Assembly (NCBI GenBank): GCA_018713325.1
Contig: DVFJ01000037.1
Coordinates: forward strand, 36,414 to 100,413
Source: Candidatus Onthenecus intestinigallinarum
GTDB lineage: Bacteria; Bacillota; Clostridia; Christensenellales; Aristaeellaceae
Direction of reading: 5' to 3'
DNA length: 64,000 nt
The notes below the pieces were generated by a model that saw only the letters and a list, made by a program, of their open reading frames with translations, searched no databases and was not told the DNA's origin. Shown one piece after another: positions 23,819-27,729 of the stretch. Each line of letters starts with the position of its first letter. Within the stretch, counting starts at the first letter, position 1. Both the position numbers and the translations under genes were made by a program.

Positions 23819-24688
23819 ATGGAGAAGATCGCAGTTTTGACCGATTCGGCCTGCGACCTATCAGAGGAAATGCAAAGGGAAAACGGAATCGACATCGTCA
23901 ACTTCAAGATCGCGCTGGATGGTAACGCCTACACAGAGCGGGAGGATTTTACCCCGCAGGAATACTATGAGATGCTGCGCAATGCAAAGGGCGTTCCCAC
24001 GACCTCTCAGGTGACGGCGCATGAGTTCCTGGAAAAGTTCAAGGCGTATGACGACGCGGGCGTGGAGCAGGTGCTCTATGTGAGCATCAACTCCACCGGA
24101 TCGGCAACCAACGCCGCCGCCCATCAGGCAGCCGAGCAGCTGCGCGAGGAGCGGCCCGACAGCGCCCTGCGCGTGCACATCGTCGACAGCCACTGCTACT
24201 CCCTGGGCTACGGCTACCCCGTCGTACAGGCGGCGCAGGCGCTGCGCGCTGGCACGCCCATGGACGAGGTGATCGACCGGCTGGAGGACACGTTCGCCCG
24301 CACGGAGATCCTGCTGTGCGCCTATTCGCTTAAGGTCATTCGCAAGTCCGGTCGCATTTCGGCGGCGGCTGCGATTGCGGGCGAACTGCTCGGGCTGCAC
24401 CCGATCTTCACGCTCAACGACGGCGTGTCCGAAGTCGTGCGCAAGGTGCGCGGCGAAAAGGCGGCCGCCAGCGCCGCGGCTTCACTGATGCGCGCGCGCA
24501 TCGTCGAGGGCGGCGCATACGGCATCGCCGCGACGGATGAGCGCTATATTCGCGCGTATGCCGAGGCGTGCGAAAAGGCGGTTGGATATCCGCCGGCCTT
24601 CTGCGGATACCTGGGCGCGGCGGTCGCATCCAACACGGGTCCCGACGCCGTGGGCCTCATCTACATCGGCGAAAAAAGGCCGCGTTAA
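23819..24688 (+). CDS. DegV family protein
   Basis: KIAVLTDSACDLSEEMQRENGIDIVNFKIALDG; PTTSQVTAHEFLEKF. Confidence 0.93.
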   Translation: MEKIAVLTDSACDLSEEMQRENGIDIVNFKIALDGNAYTEREDFTPQEYYEMLRNAKGVPTTSQVTAHEFLEKFKAYDDAGVEQVLYVSINSTGSATNAAAHQAAEQLREERPDSALRVHIVDSHCYSLGYGYPVVQAAQALRAGTPMDEVIDRLEDTFARTEILLCAYSLKVIRKSGRISAAAAIAGELLGLHPIFTLNDGVSEVVRKVRGEKAAASAAASLMRARIVEGGAYGIAATDERYIRAYAEACEKAVGYPPAFCGYLGAAVASNTGPDAVGLIYIGEKRPR

Positions 24689-24693
24689 GGGCC

Positions 24694-24734
24694 GCGGGCG
24701 TCTGCGCAGAGGATGCGCGGACGCCCGCTTTTTT
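24694..24734 (+). terminator. Rho-independent terminator after degV
   Basis: GCGGGCGTCTGCGC...GCGCGGACGCCCGC then TTTTTT. Confidence 0.85.
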
Positions 24735-24844
24735 GTGGAAAAAAAATTCCTTTTTCGGGAGCGGGAAACAAAAATCTCCTTGCGGATTAACGTGCAATGT
24801 GGTATGCTAATATTGTTTTTATGGAAGAACACGGACGGGGGCTG

Positions 24845-25519
24845 ATGAACGTGTCGGAACGCGAAACGCGCTCGTCGGAGATGAGCAGAGAGGTCGCCTG
24901 GAAAAACCTGATATGCAAAATTGACGGCGTACAGTCCGCGCGCGTGGTCTTTGGCGAGCGCGGAGAGGTGGAGGAGATCCACGTCATCGCGGATGAGCGG
25001 CGCACCGCCAAGCAGGTGACGCGCGACATCCAGTCTGCCCTGATGGCCGCCTTTGACGCGGAGATCGACTATCGCGTCATCAGCGTAGCGCGCATCCCCG
25101 TGGAAGAAAGCCGGGAGGAGTCCCTTCCTGTCCAAAACGTCCGCCTGCTCTACGAGGGCATCGACCTGCATTCCCAGCGGGACAGCATGTCTGTGGGCGT
25201 GCGGCTGGGCTGCGGCGACCGCGAGTATGAGGGACTGGCCTCCTGCCAGAGCGGCGCGTTCTCCCGTCAGCGCATGGTCGCCATGGCCACTGTGAGCGCG
25301 ATCAACGAATTCATGGGCGCGCCTGTGTTTGAACTGATCGACGTGCAGACGGCGCAGGTCAGTGGACGGGCGGCCGTGCTGGCAAGCGTCAACTGCGTGA
25401 AGGGCCCCGAGCTGCTGCTCGGCGGCGCTTTCCTGCGCGACGATGCGGACAAGGCCGTCGTCAAGGCCACGATGGACGCCGTCAACCGCCGCGTGAGCTA
25501 CATCAAGCGTTCCCTGTAA
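24845..25519 (+). CDS. Conserved-looking hypothetical protein
   Basis: ~224 aa, no TM; N-terminal alpha/beta domain (DGVQSARVVFGERGEVEEIHVIADERRTAKQVTRDIQSALMAAF) and C-terminal domain; upstream start (24821) possible. Confidence 0.75.
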   Translation: MNVSERETRSSEMSREVAWKNLICKIDGVQSARVVFGERGEVEEIHVIADERRTAKQVTRDIQSALMAAFDAEIDYRVISVARIPVEESREESLPVQNVRLLYEGIDLHSQRDSMSVGVRLGCGDREYEGLASCQSGAFSRQRMVAMATVSAINEFMGAPVFELIDVQTAQVSGRAAVLASVNCVKGPELLLGGAFLRDDADKAVVKATMDAVNRRVSYIKRSL

Positions 25520-25564
25520 CAGAAGCCCACTTTGCCATGCCTTTTTTCGCGCCTCTCATTTGAC

Positions 25565-25793
25565 GAAACAGATCCGGCCACAACGGCATCTTTCAAAGCG
25601 TAGCGGATATAGCCTGCTCAACTAGCGGTAAGCAGAGCCTGTGAAACAGGAGGCTATATATCGTGAAGAAGATCATGCTGGCCGTCTCGGCGGTGGCTGC
25701 GTTCCTGCTCTCTTCCGGCGCCTTCTTTGGCTGGAACTGGAAGTACTAAGCTTTAGGTAGGATCATCTGGAACCATGCGGCCGGATCTGTTTC
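25565..25793 (+). promoter_or_regulatory. Putative structured leader: 15-bp inverted repeat enclosing a three-way-junction RNA and a short ORF
   Basis: GAAACAGATCCGGCC (25565-25579) perfectly complementary to GGCCGGATCTGTTTC (25779-25793); inner stems ATATAGCC/GGCTATAT (25607-25614/25652-25659), TGCT/AGCA (25615-25618/25631-25634), CCTGT/ACAGG (25638-25642/25646-25650). Confidence 0.5.
25663..25749 (+). CDS. 28-aa hydrophobic small peptide
   Basis: GTG start preceded by AGGAGG; VKKIMLAVSAVAAFLLSSGAFFGWNWKY*; not in the ORF track because of its length. Confidence 0.5.
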   Translation: MKKIMLAVSAVAAFLLSSGAFFGWNWKY

Positions 25794-25841
25794 TATACAT
25801 TCGGCCCCTGTTTGCACCGCCGCAGCAGGCGGAGGTAGCTG

Positions 25842-27125
25842 ATGAATAAAAGCCAAAAGGTCTACATCGCTTTCATATTTCTCGTTGGACTGTTGATTAC
25901 GGCCGTGGACGTCATGCCCTCGGTGCTGATCGTTCGCGAGGCGGGGCCGTCCAACGCCCTGCCACAGATGGTCATCATGCTGGTGCTGATGGCCGTCTTT
26001 CGCTCCATTCCGCTACAGTTATCCGAAGAGCACATCGTAGACGTCTCCTTCATCATCGTGCTTGCGGCCGTCTTGACGATGGAGGCGTCGGTCGTGCAGC
26101 TGCTCTACGCGCTGAGCACGCCGCTTATGTTTGCGCGCGAGGGCCGGACGCAAAAGCTGGGCCTGAGCCTGTTGCACCGGCCGGTTCAGCTGCTGTTCAA
26201 CACCTGTATCGTGCTGATCGCGCTCTCGTTTGCCAATGTGGTGTTCCTGCTCCTGGGCGGCAACAACGAGAGCTTCCGCATCCCGTATTCGATCCTGCCC
26301 AGCACGCTGTTCTCCGCGGTCGTCATGGTCGTCAACCTGCTGCTGCTGCTCGTGCTCTTTGCCCTGGGCGGCGAGGACGTCCGCGGCAACCTGCGCGAGA
26401 ACATCGTGGGCATTCTGCCCAACATCCTGGCGACGATGCCCGTCGGCATTCTGCTGGCCTATATGCTCAAACTGCCGGGCGGCGAATACCTGCTGGCAAT
26501 CTTCATGCTGCCGCTGCTGCTGGCGCGGTATTCGTTCAAACTCTATGTGGAGAGCAAGGAGCAATACATCAACATGATCGCGGCGCTCTCCAGCGCCATC
26601 GAAGTCAAGGACCCCTATACCGAGGGCCATTCGCGCCGCGTGAGCGAATACGCCGTGCGCATCGCGCAGGTGATGAACCTGCCGCACAAGCGCATCGCCG
26701 ACCTGCGCGTGGCCGCCCTGCTGCATGATATCGGCAAGATCGGCGTCAACGATCAGGTGCTCCACAAGCACGGACCGCTCGACGACGAAGAATGGAAGAT
26801 CGTACGCCAGCATCCGGTGATCGGCTATCGCATCATCAGCTCGCTCAACATCGCCGAGACGGCCAAGCAGGCGATCCTGCACCATCACGAGCGATTTGAC
26901 GGCAAGGGGTATCCCGACGGCAAGCCCCTGTCCGAGCTGCCGCTGGAGGTGGCCATCCTCTCCATCGCGGATGCGTTTGACGCGATGACGAGCGACCGGC
27001 CCTACCGCAAGGCGATGCCCAAGGCGCGCGCGCTGGACGTGCTGCGCGCGGAGGCGGGCAACCAGTTCCACAGCGAGGTCGTCGCCGCAATGGAAGAAGT
27101 GGCCCGCACGCTCGACCTGCCTTGA
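25842..27125 (+). CDS. HD-GYP domain phosphohydrolase with N-terminal membrane domain
   Basis: VKDPYTEGHSRRVSEYAVRIAQ...ALLHDIGKIGVNDQVLHKHGPLDDEEW...HHERFDGKGYPDGKP...SIADAFDAMTSDRPYRKAM. Confidence 0.95.
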   Translation: MNKSQKVYIAFIFLVGLLITAVDVMPSVLIVREAGPSNALPQMVIMLVLMAVFRSIPLQLSEEHIVDVSFIIVLAAVLTMEASVVQLLYALSTPLMFAREGRTQKLGLSLLHRPVQLLFNTCIVLIALSFANVVFLLLGGNNESFRIPYSILPSTLFSAVVMVVNLLLLLVLFALGGEDVRGNLRENIVGILPNILATMPVGILLAYMLKLPGGEYLLAIFMLPLLLARYSFKLYVESKEQYINMIAALSSAIEVKDPYTEGHSRRVSEYAVRIAQVMNLPHKRIADLRVAALLHDIGKIGVNDQVLHKHGPLDDEEWKIVRQHPVIGYRIISSLNIAETAKQAILHHHERFDGKGYPDGKPLSELPLEVAILSIADAFDAMTSDRPYRKAMPKARALDVLRAEAGNQFHSEVVAAMEEVARTLDLP

Positions 27126-27180
27126 TCCCTTCCGGCCCGCTTCGGCGGGCCTTCTCATCAGGAAGCGGAGGAATGCCATC

Positions 27181-27729
27181 GTGATGCTCATTCTGGCGGC
27201 CGTGCCGGTCGCGCTGTGCCTGCTGCTGGCGCGCCGCAGGGGCGGCGGCCTGCGCCGGATCGCCCACAGCGAGATCCAGGCGCTGGCGCTGCCCATCCTG
27301 GCCTTTTTGCTGGAGGCTGCCTTTCAGGCAGCCTCCCGGTATGTCAGGCTGCCGGACGGCGCGCTCGCCCTGCAGGTGCCGATCCAGTATGCGGCGCTGC
27401 TGCTGTTCGCCTGGCGCAACCGGCGCTTTGACCCCGGCGCATGGGCCGCTGGCGCGGGCGCGCTGTGCAACTTCGCCGTCATCGCGCTCAACGGGTTTTG
27501 CATGCCCGTGTCGTCCACATCGCAGGCGGCCGGAATGCTCGCGGCAGGGGAGATCTACGGCTACGCGCTGCGGGATGCGTCCACGCGCCTGGCGTGGCTT
27601 GGCGACGTCATCCCGCTGGCCGGCGGATTTGCCAGCGTTGGAGACCTGCTGCTCATTGCGGGCGCTGTGCGCCTGCTGTATGCGATGATGCTTCCGCGCA
27701 GAGAGGAGGACGCGCATGGGACGGCATGA
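27181..27729 (+). CDS. DUF5317-like membrane protein
   Basis: Multi-TM; GALCNFAVIALNGFCMPVS...WLGDVIPLAGGFASVGDLLLIAG. Confidence 0.7.
   Translation: MMLILAAVPVALCLLLARRRGGGLRRIAHSEIQALALPILAFLLEAAFQAASRYVRLPDGALALQVPIQYAALLLFAWRNRRFDPGAWAAGAGALCNFAVIALNGFCMPVSSTSQAAGMLAAGEIYGYALRDASTRLAWLGDVIPLAGGFASVGDLLLIAGAVRLLYAMMLPRREEDAHGTA

Follow-up and report, generated by a model that had tools for sequence, protein, structure and literature searches.

A conserved gene cassette of Bacillota with a structured leader RNA, a micropeptide and a membrane HD-GYP protein

Introduction

Small membrane proteins such as KdpF, AcrZ and MgtR act as regulators of larger membrane enzymes, and short hydrophobic pheromone precursors are known from systems of the SHP/Rgg type. 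RNA leaders beside genes of cyclic di-GMP (c-di-GMP) metabolism are represented by the c-di-GMP-I and c-di-GMP-II riboswitches, and HD-GYP phosphodiesterases with sensor domains by PmGH (4mcw), V-cGAP3 (5z7c), DvhD (9rbz) and proteins with a MASE9 domain. Here, we analysed a locus of Candidatus Onthenecus intestinigallinarum comprising a gene for a soluble hypothetical protein (referred to as hyp), a structured leader RNA, a micropeptide open reading frame (ORF) and genes for a membrane HD-GYP protein and a DUF5317 protein. It is located in a stretch of 64,000 nucleotides (nt) of contig DVFJ01000037.1 (assembly GCA_018713325.1), called the window in the following, to which all positions refer unless a locus of another genome is named.

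The locus shares single traits with each of these systems. As in the KdpF/AcrZ/MgtR type, its peptide, of about 25 amino acids, is predicted to form one helix, and its ORF shares the locus with the gene of a membrane enzyme; no sequence relation was found, however, and the peptide ORF lies inside a structured RNA predicted to hide its ribosome-binding site. With the SHP/Rgg type it has in common a short hydrophobic peptide, possibly a cleaved precursor, that ends in a short tail, but no Rgg or other RRNPP-type receptor was recognised in the cassette, where the neighbour is a putative membrane phosphodiesterase. The leader stands beside c-di-GMP metabolism like the c-di-GMP-I and c-di-GMP-II riboswitches, but it has no sequence or structure match to them (neither covariance model hit it), occurs at a single locus, precedes a peptide ORF and lies inside a long outer stem. 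The HD-GYP protein has the same catalytic fold and nearly all active-site residues of the HD-GYP phosphodiesterases mentioned above; no description was found of any HD-GYP protein whose gene accompanies both a structured leader RNA and a conserved micropeptide ORF. The enzyme is of a known kind, and the RNA, micropeptide and hyp families are absent from the curated libraries searched: Rfam, Pfam, NCBIfam and a PDB sequence search gave no description of any of the three. Also, no description of the combination was found in the open literature, where an anonymous listing in supplementary tables of RNA or micropeptide catalogues (e.g. PMC8040213) is possible; literature searches gave no match for DUF5317 and nothing relevant for MASE9.

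Results

Conservation of the cassette across Bacillota

For comparison, 84,980 species genomes were scanned with a hyp alignment, giving 573 relatives, from which 80 loci of named genomes were kept. These include Papillibacter, Pseudoflavonifractor, Caproiciproducens, Clostridium, Thermoanaerobacter, Desulfosporosinus, Geosporobacter and Caldicoprobacter. The HD-GYP gene follows hyp directly in 78 of the 80 loci, usually at a distance of 200-450 nt, and in the remaining two the contig ends first. By an automatic filter combined with inspection, the peptide ORF was found in essentially all 80 loci; the filter alone missed eight loci, but six of these contain the peptide (truncated at the contig end in one of them), another is broken up by Ns, and in the last (L112) a tandem hyp copy masked it. 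A DUF5317 gene is present downstream of the HD-GYP gene in at least 62 of 75 loci, usually directly after it.

Searches that started from other parts of the locus led to the same arrangement. When the DNA of 100 relatives was searched, the intergenic element also appeared in other genera, where hyp and HD-GYP likewise flank it. Among 250 genomes drawn from the family, hyp occurred in 22, with element and peptide adjoining in 21. A pattern search of 291 genomes of the class returned seven true cases in other families, all in the same context, and one chance match in a tuf-like gene. It is therefore nearly certain that a single cassette of hyp, leader RNA, peptide and membrane HD-GYP protein, in most cases with DUF5317, is conserved across Bacillota. 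The earlier note on this DNA, made from the window alone, had proposed such a cassette, and both parts of its proposal hold beyond the window: the genes adjoin one another elsewhere, and RNA and peptide are conserved among relatives, as seen from covariation, flank swaps and the peptide family.

Single loci deviate. In L011 (G035:C69), the one exception among the 22 family genomes with hyp, this gene and HD-GYP are separated by a gap of 29 nt without RNA or peptide; an in-frame stop is reported for this hyp gene, which is possibly decaying. An apparent tandem duplication of hyp precedes the HD-GYP gene in L112, and an apparent tandem duplication of DUF5317 follows it in L069, L078 and L093.

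In the window, the cassette consists of the following features:

24694-24734, + strand: intrinsic terminator of the preceding gene, degV; marks where the cassette transcription unit starts
24845-25519, + strand: hyp, ORF of a soluble protein of 224 amino acids
25520-25841, + strand: intergenic region between hyp and the HD-GYP gene, 322 nt
25565-25582, + strand: 5′ arm of the long-range outer stem (inverted repeat, flank-swap comparison)
25597-25605, + strand: AGCGUAGCG, first two AGCG boxes, near-invariant in the leader alignment except for the central base
25607-25613, + strand: 5′ strand of helix P1, AUAUAGC, partner 25653-25659 (alignment, covariation)
25614-25635, + strand: P2 hairpin, 25614-25618 pairing with 25631-25635 (alignment, covariation)
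25624-25627, + strand: third AGCG box, within the P2 loop
25638-25650, + strand: P3 hairpin CCUG...CAGG, overlapping the Shine-Dalgarno sequence; differs among lineages (read from the sequence)
25648-25653, + strand: strong Shine-Dalgarno sequence AGGAGG, about 10 nt 5′ of the GTG start of the peptide
25653-25659, + strand: 3′ strand of P1 (covariation)
25663-25749, + strand: micropeptide ORF with GTG start, 28 amino acids, MKKIMLAVSAVAAFLLSSGAFFGWNWKY, one of 92 distinct family sequences
25776-25793, + strand: 3′ arm of the outer stem (inverted repeat, flank-swap comparison)
25842-27125, + strand: membrane HD-GYP protein, 427 amino acids, with N-terminal membrane domain and C-terminal HD-GYP domain (Pfam)
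27181-27729, + strand: DUF5317 hydrophobic protein (Pfam)

The five co-oriented elements of the earlier note were recovered on this strand, all where it had placed them or close by. The degV terminator that it had described is a 15-bp hairpin (24694-24728) followed by TTTTTT, its long inverted repeat is the outer stem with arms that are 94% complementary, and the overlap between the DUF5317 gene and rsmA (from 27716) is present as it had said.

The leader RNA

A covariance model built from 48 leaders, using the RNA alone, served to search 399 genomes of the phylum and gave 39 matches, one per genome; the genome of the window also has a single match. Of these matches, 30 were fetched: hyp was located upstream in all of them and HD-GYP downstream in 29, the other contig being cut off, and the peptide was detected automatically at 27. 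Such a tie to one locus is more readily explained by a dedicated partner, for instance hyp, than by a general small-molecule switch. A mobile element or repeat was ruled out since the model matches the genome only once.

The core has a constant order, namely AGCGnAGCG, P1 (AUAUAGC/GCUAUAU in the window), P2 with a UAGCG loop, CAGAG, and the Shine-Dalgarno sequence within or beside P1. In the peptide-proximal part of the core, 92.4% of the pair cells are paired across the 48 sequences, compared to 30-50% when partner columns were slid; changes on both sides were found at 11 of 13 core pairs versus 5.1 in shuffles, and RNAalifold recovers the same core helices unaided. The earlier note had called the internal RNA foldable. 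The folding energy of the window's intergenic region is no better than that of shuffled sequence (z = -0.46), and for this reason folding energy was dropped as proof of structure and covariation used instead; the structure itself was upheld by the comparative evidence from core and outer stem.

AGCG occurs in 77 of 77 leaders, mostly in three copies, whereas shuffled sequences mostly contain none. In deep branches the boxes move apart and AGCG itself is kept. CsrA sites (GGA in loops) were considered but rejected, as the boxes keep AGCG constant and not GGA. In Desulfosporosinus (L095, L097, L105, L106, L108-L111, L117), the leaders carry expanded repeats of the AGCGRARCGG type.

The core helices are predicted to hide the ribosome-binding site of the peptide, its Shine-Dalgarno sequence having a mean pairing probability of 0.77, compared to 0.52 when the sequence upstream of it was shuffled and to 0.58 for the Shine-Dalgarno sequence of the HD-GYP gene itself. 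In Desulfosporosinus, a different helix (CCUUUGAU/AUCAAGG, read from the sequences) covers the site, so that the predicted occlusion is kept while the sequence changes. Rfam gave no match at gathering score in the window, none at E≤5 around the leader and none overlapping the leaders of ten other loci, by which a known riboswitch was ruled out.

The outer stem and promoters

The outer stem encloses both the leader core and the peptide ORF. Its sequence is wholly different between lineages (AAACAGATCCGGC, AAGCCAAAACATC, GGGCCGAC, AAAATCAGGTTTGCAG) and its complementarity is kept: the mean score was 34.4 versus 19.1 (standard deviation 4.3) when 5′ and 3′ flanks were swapped between loci, and 57 of 72 loci exceeded the 95th percentile of the swapped controls. 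An intrinsic terminator was ruled out here, given a loop of about 190 nt and U runs after only some members.

A simple consensus scan of both strands from 24600 to 27300 found no promoter-like site. Sigma-A-like sites with at most one mismatch were detected upstream of hyp in 8 of 77 loci versus 0 in shuffled sequences. Sigma-D or another special promoter at this position was rejected, sigma-D-like matches being no better than shuffled.

The micropeptide

The peptide family comprises 92 distinct sequences of 20-32 amino acids, nearly all of 24-30, for which neither Pfam nor NCBIfam has a model above cut-off. Lysine or arginine near the N-terminus is followed by a hydrophobic segment of nearly fixed length (20 residues) that ends with [GSAC]-[GA]-[AS]. 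Among the 92 peptides, position -1 is A in 86 and S in 6, position -2 is G in 88 and A in 4, and position -3 is G in 64, S in 13, A in 12 and C in 3. The tail behind this motif has mostly 4-6 residues of the type x-aromatic-x-[W/I/L]-[R/K/G]. Small residues (rich in A, S and T) at -11, -8 and -4 and leucines at -13, -10, -7 and -5 would give the helix one small and one bulky face.

The peptide is under purifying selection: close pairs differ by 277 synonymous versus 107 nonsynonymous single changes, corresponding to a dN/dS-like ratio of 0.137. In partial Mantel tests, peptide distance tracked that of the HD-GYP membrane domain with the HD domain and hyp controlled (r 0.20, 0 of 500 permutations), and peptide and hyp distances were not correlated (r 0.07, p 0.14). 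This hints at a coupling between peptide and membrane domain.

The HD-GYP and DUF5317 proteins

Both family assignments of the earlier note agree with Pfam, which assigns the catalytic domain to PF13487 (HD_5, 1.7e-38) and the downstream protein to DUF5317 (PF17248, 66.2 bits versus a cut-off of 25, 4.3e-18); six relatives also match DUF5317. H295, D296, G356, Y357 and P358 of the HD-GYP protein are invariant in 58 homologues. The metal ligands of PmGH are E185, H189, H221, D222, H250, H276, H277 and D305 (PMC4159591). Equivalents of seven of these eight and of D183 and K225 are present and invariant (D257, H263, H295, D296, K299, H324, H348, H349, D377). The structure was predicted with high confidence (predicted local distance difference test, pLDDT, 91.7), and its catalytic half matches PmGH and c-di-GMP-bound DvhD. 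MASE9 (PF20972) was matched at the N-terminus by the relatives L107 (41.6 bits) and L117 (28.5 bits) at a cut-off of 24.3; the window copy gave no match. GGDEF proteins (diguanylate cyclases) were found in 12 of 12 cassette genomes tested and c-di-GMP-I riboswitches in 10 of these 12. The membrane HD-GYP protein is predicted to destroy c-di-GMP.

The hyp protein

Pfam, NCBIfam and a PDB sequence search gave nothing above cut-off for hyp. Its predicted structure (pLDDT 88.5, predicted template modelling score 0.58) has an N-terminal α-β-β-α-β domain similar to the ring-building motifs of EscJ/FliF and a C-terminal (βββα)x2 domain that resembles the regulatory domain of LeuA/CimA. Foldseek hits of the isolated C-terminal domain had E-values of about 1e-4 to 2e-4 (3f6g_B: E 2e-4, TMt 0.58). 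Unlike LeuA/CimA, hyp has no catalytic domain, and this part of the protein, which shares the (βββα)x2 order, has no PDB or Pfam profile match above cut-off. A conserved basic stretch (R53, K56, R60) could bind nucleic acid.

Discussion

A possible mechanism

With a probability of roughly 0.45, we propose that the RNA acts as a gate for the translation of a membrane peptide, that the peptide regulates the sensor domain of the HD-GYP protein, and that hyp is likely an RNA-binding sensor. The leader would fold with the Shine-Dalgarno sequence of the peptide inside P1/P3, so that peptide translation is off by default, and a regulator reading the three AGCG boxes would open or lock this fold. The likeliest candidate is hyp, because the RNA was found only beside it; it would bind RNA and sense a small molecule through its LeuA-like domain. 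Once made, the peptide would enter the membrane as a single helix with the positive N-terminus inside and the aromatic tail outside, and its face of small residues may pack on the N-terminal membrane domain of the HD-GYP protein. Such packing would alter how the enzyme hydrolyses its cyclic dinucleotide, for which c-di-GMP is the likeliest candidate. The outer stem may isolate or process the peptide segment within the polycistronic mRNA, whereby the peptide could be expressed separately from hyp and HD-GYP. The earlier note had already suggested regulation of the HD-GYP protein by peptide or RNA, or sensing of these by the protein; we still infer this indirectly, from the predicted occlusion of the Shine-Dalgarno sequence, the weak tracking of the membrane domain by the peptide and the presence of the RNA at this locus only.

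Several results weigh against this proposal. The correlation between peptide and membrane domain is weak and phylogeny was only partly controlled, P3 is not conserved as a helix, and the role given to the outer stem is guesswork. Hyp belongs to no recognised RNA-binding family, and its likeness to LeuA is at the level of the fold, with no sequence-profile support. Also, the metal ligand E185 of PmGH is replaced by Tyr259 in the window protein, whose best PDB sequence match is a phosphodiesterase of 3′3′-cyclic GMP-AMP (3′3′-cGAMP), so that the candidate substrate is not fixed as c-di-GMP.

Other explanations

The peptide might instead be a secreted pheromone, made as a signal-peptide-like precursor that is cut after [GSAC]-[GA]-[AS] and whose aromatic tail is sensed by the membrane HD-GYP protein. 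In all 92 peptides the residue at -1 is Ala or Ser and that at -3 is small, which fits signal peptidase I; the putative tail is short, mostly of 4-6 residues, aromatic and lineage-specific (e.g. TFKW, YVTWR, GFFWW), the HD-GYP protein has an integral, sensor-like membrane domain, and peptide and membrane domain diverge together. However, signal peptidase needs neither Gly at -2, found in 88 of 92, nor the nearly fixed spacing of 20 residues, W and R at a helix end are also ordinary residues of the membrane interface, and no exporter, protease or peptide permease is a constant neighbour. We regard this explanation as unlikely, and as the most plausible of the alternatives. Unlikely as well is a leader that acts as a riboswitch and senses a small molecule directly, perhaps c-di-GMP. 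Its compact conserved core with invariant unpaired positions and the adjoining c-di-GMP metabolism would suit such a role, but Rfam gave no match even at E<5, and the leader is present once per genome, here only, while c-di-GMP-I riboswitches reach up to 11 copies in the same genomes. Moreover, the repeated AGCG boxes, whose spacing shifts in deep branches while AGCG stays, look more like protein sites.

A short ORF directly upstream of HD-GYP, in a structured leader and with its Shine-Dalgarno sequence hidden in a helix, is also what would be expected of a leader peptide that controls the downstream gene by attenuation or translational coupling and whose product itself is functionless. This is rather improbable: conservation (dN/dS-like ratio above) extends over the full length of the product, with the residue pattern of a membrane helix and not just in the last codons, the peptide is too short to emerge from the ribosome before termination, the 3′ arm of the outer stem ends before the Shine-Dalgarno sequence of HD-GYP, and a ribosome translating the ORF does not cover the stem strands. 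The small hydrophobic peptide, the hidden Shine-Dalgarno sequence and the long-range 5′-3′ pairing further recall hok-type mRNAs, and thus a unit like a type I toxin-antitoxin system, in which a membrane-active peptide is silenced by this sequestration and pairing. A single copy at a fixed operon position across Bacillota, an HD-GYP gene that is always linked, strong conservation of the peptide and the negative result of the simple consensus scan for promoters on both strands of 24600-27300 speak against such a unit and make it very improbable.

Significance

The cassette supplies one RNA family, one micropeptide family and one protein family, and it ties DUF5317 and membrane HD-GYP proteins to a specific tiny peptide and a dedicated RNA across much of Bacillota. 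If the peptide does control the enzyme, it would link peptides to a second messenger with a translational gate of its own. The arrangement suggests a new way for these bacteria to control c-di-GMP. Somewhat more tentatively than the mechanism above, it may represent a new class of signalling, in which an RNA-binding sensor protein, a locus-tied leader RNA and a micropeptide jointly control a membrane phosphodiesterase of cyclic dinucleotides. The peptide would then be a ligand or subunit of its membrane receptor domain, possibly a secreted pheromone that is read directly into c-di-GMP levels.

Neighbouring genes and RNAs

The gene rsmA is not among the recurrent neighbour clusters of the cassette loci. 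Some lineages (L056, L058, L069, L073, L078, L098, L112, L114) have flgN, fliD, fliS and hpf upstream and secA downstream. The ribosome-hibernation factor HPF is encoded near the cassette in 17 loci and a SecA-like protein in 18. These neighbours suggest a role in motility or stationary-phase decisions. In genome G841 (C1), the strand opposite the leader RNA carries a c-di-GMP-I riboswitch at a distance of about 2 kb (2850346-2850417 (L125) and 2852329-2852415). A raiA RNA (RF03072) is located about 2-3 kb upstream of the cassette in three loci (L056:3571-3782, L069:2453-2697, L078:2884-3120), and in L069 a c-di-GMP-I riboswitch is present as well (2871-2955).

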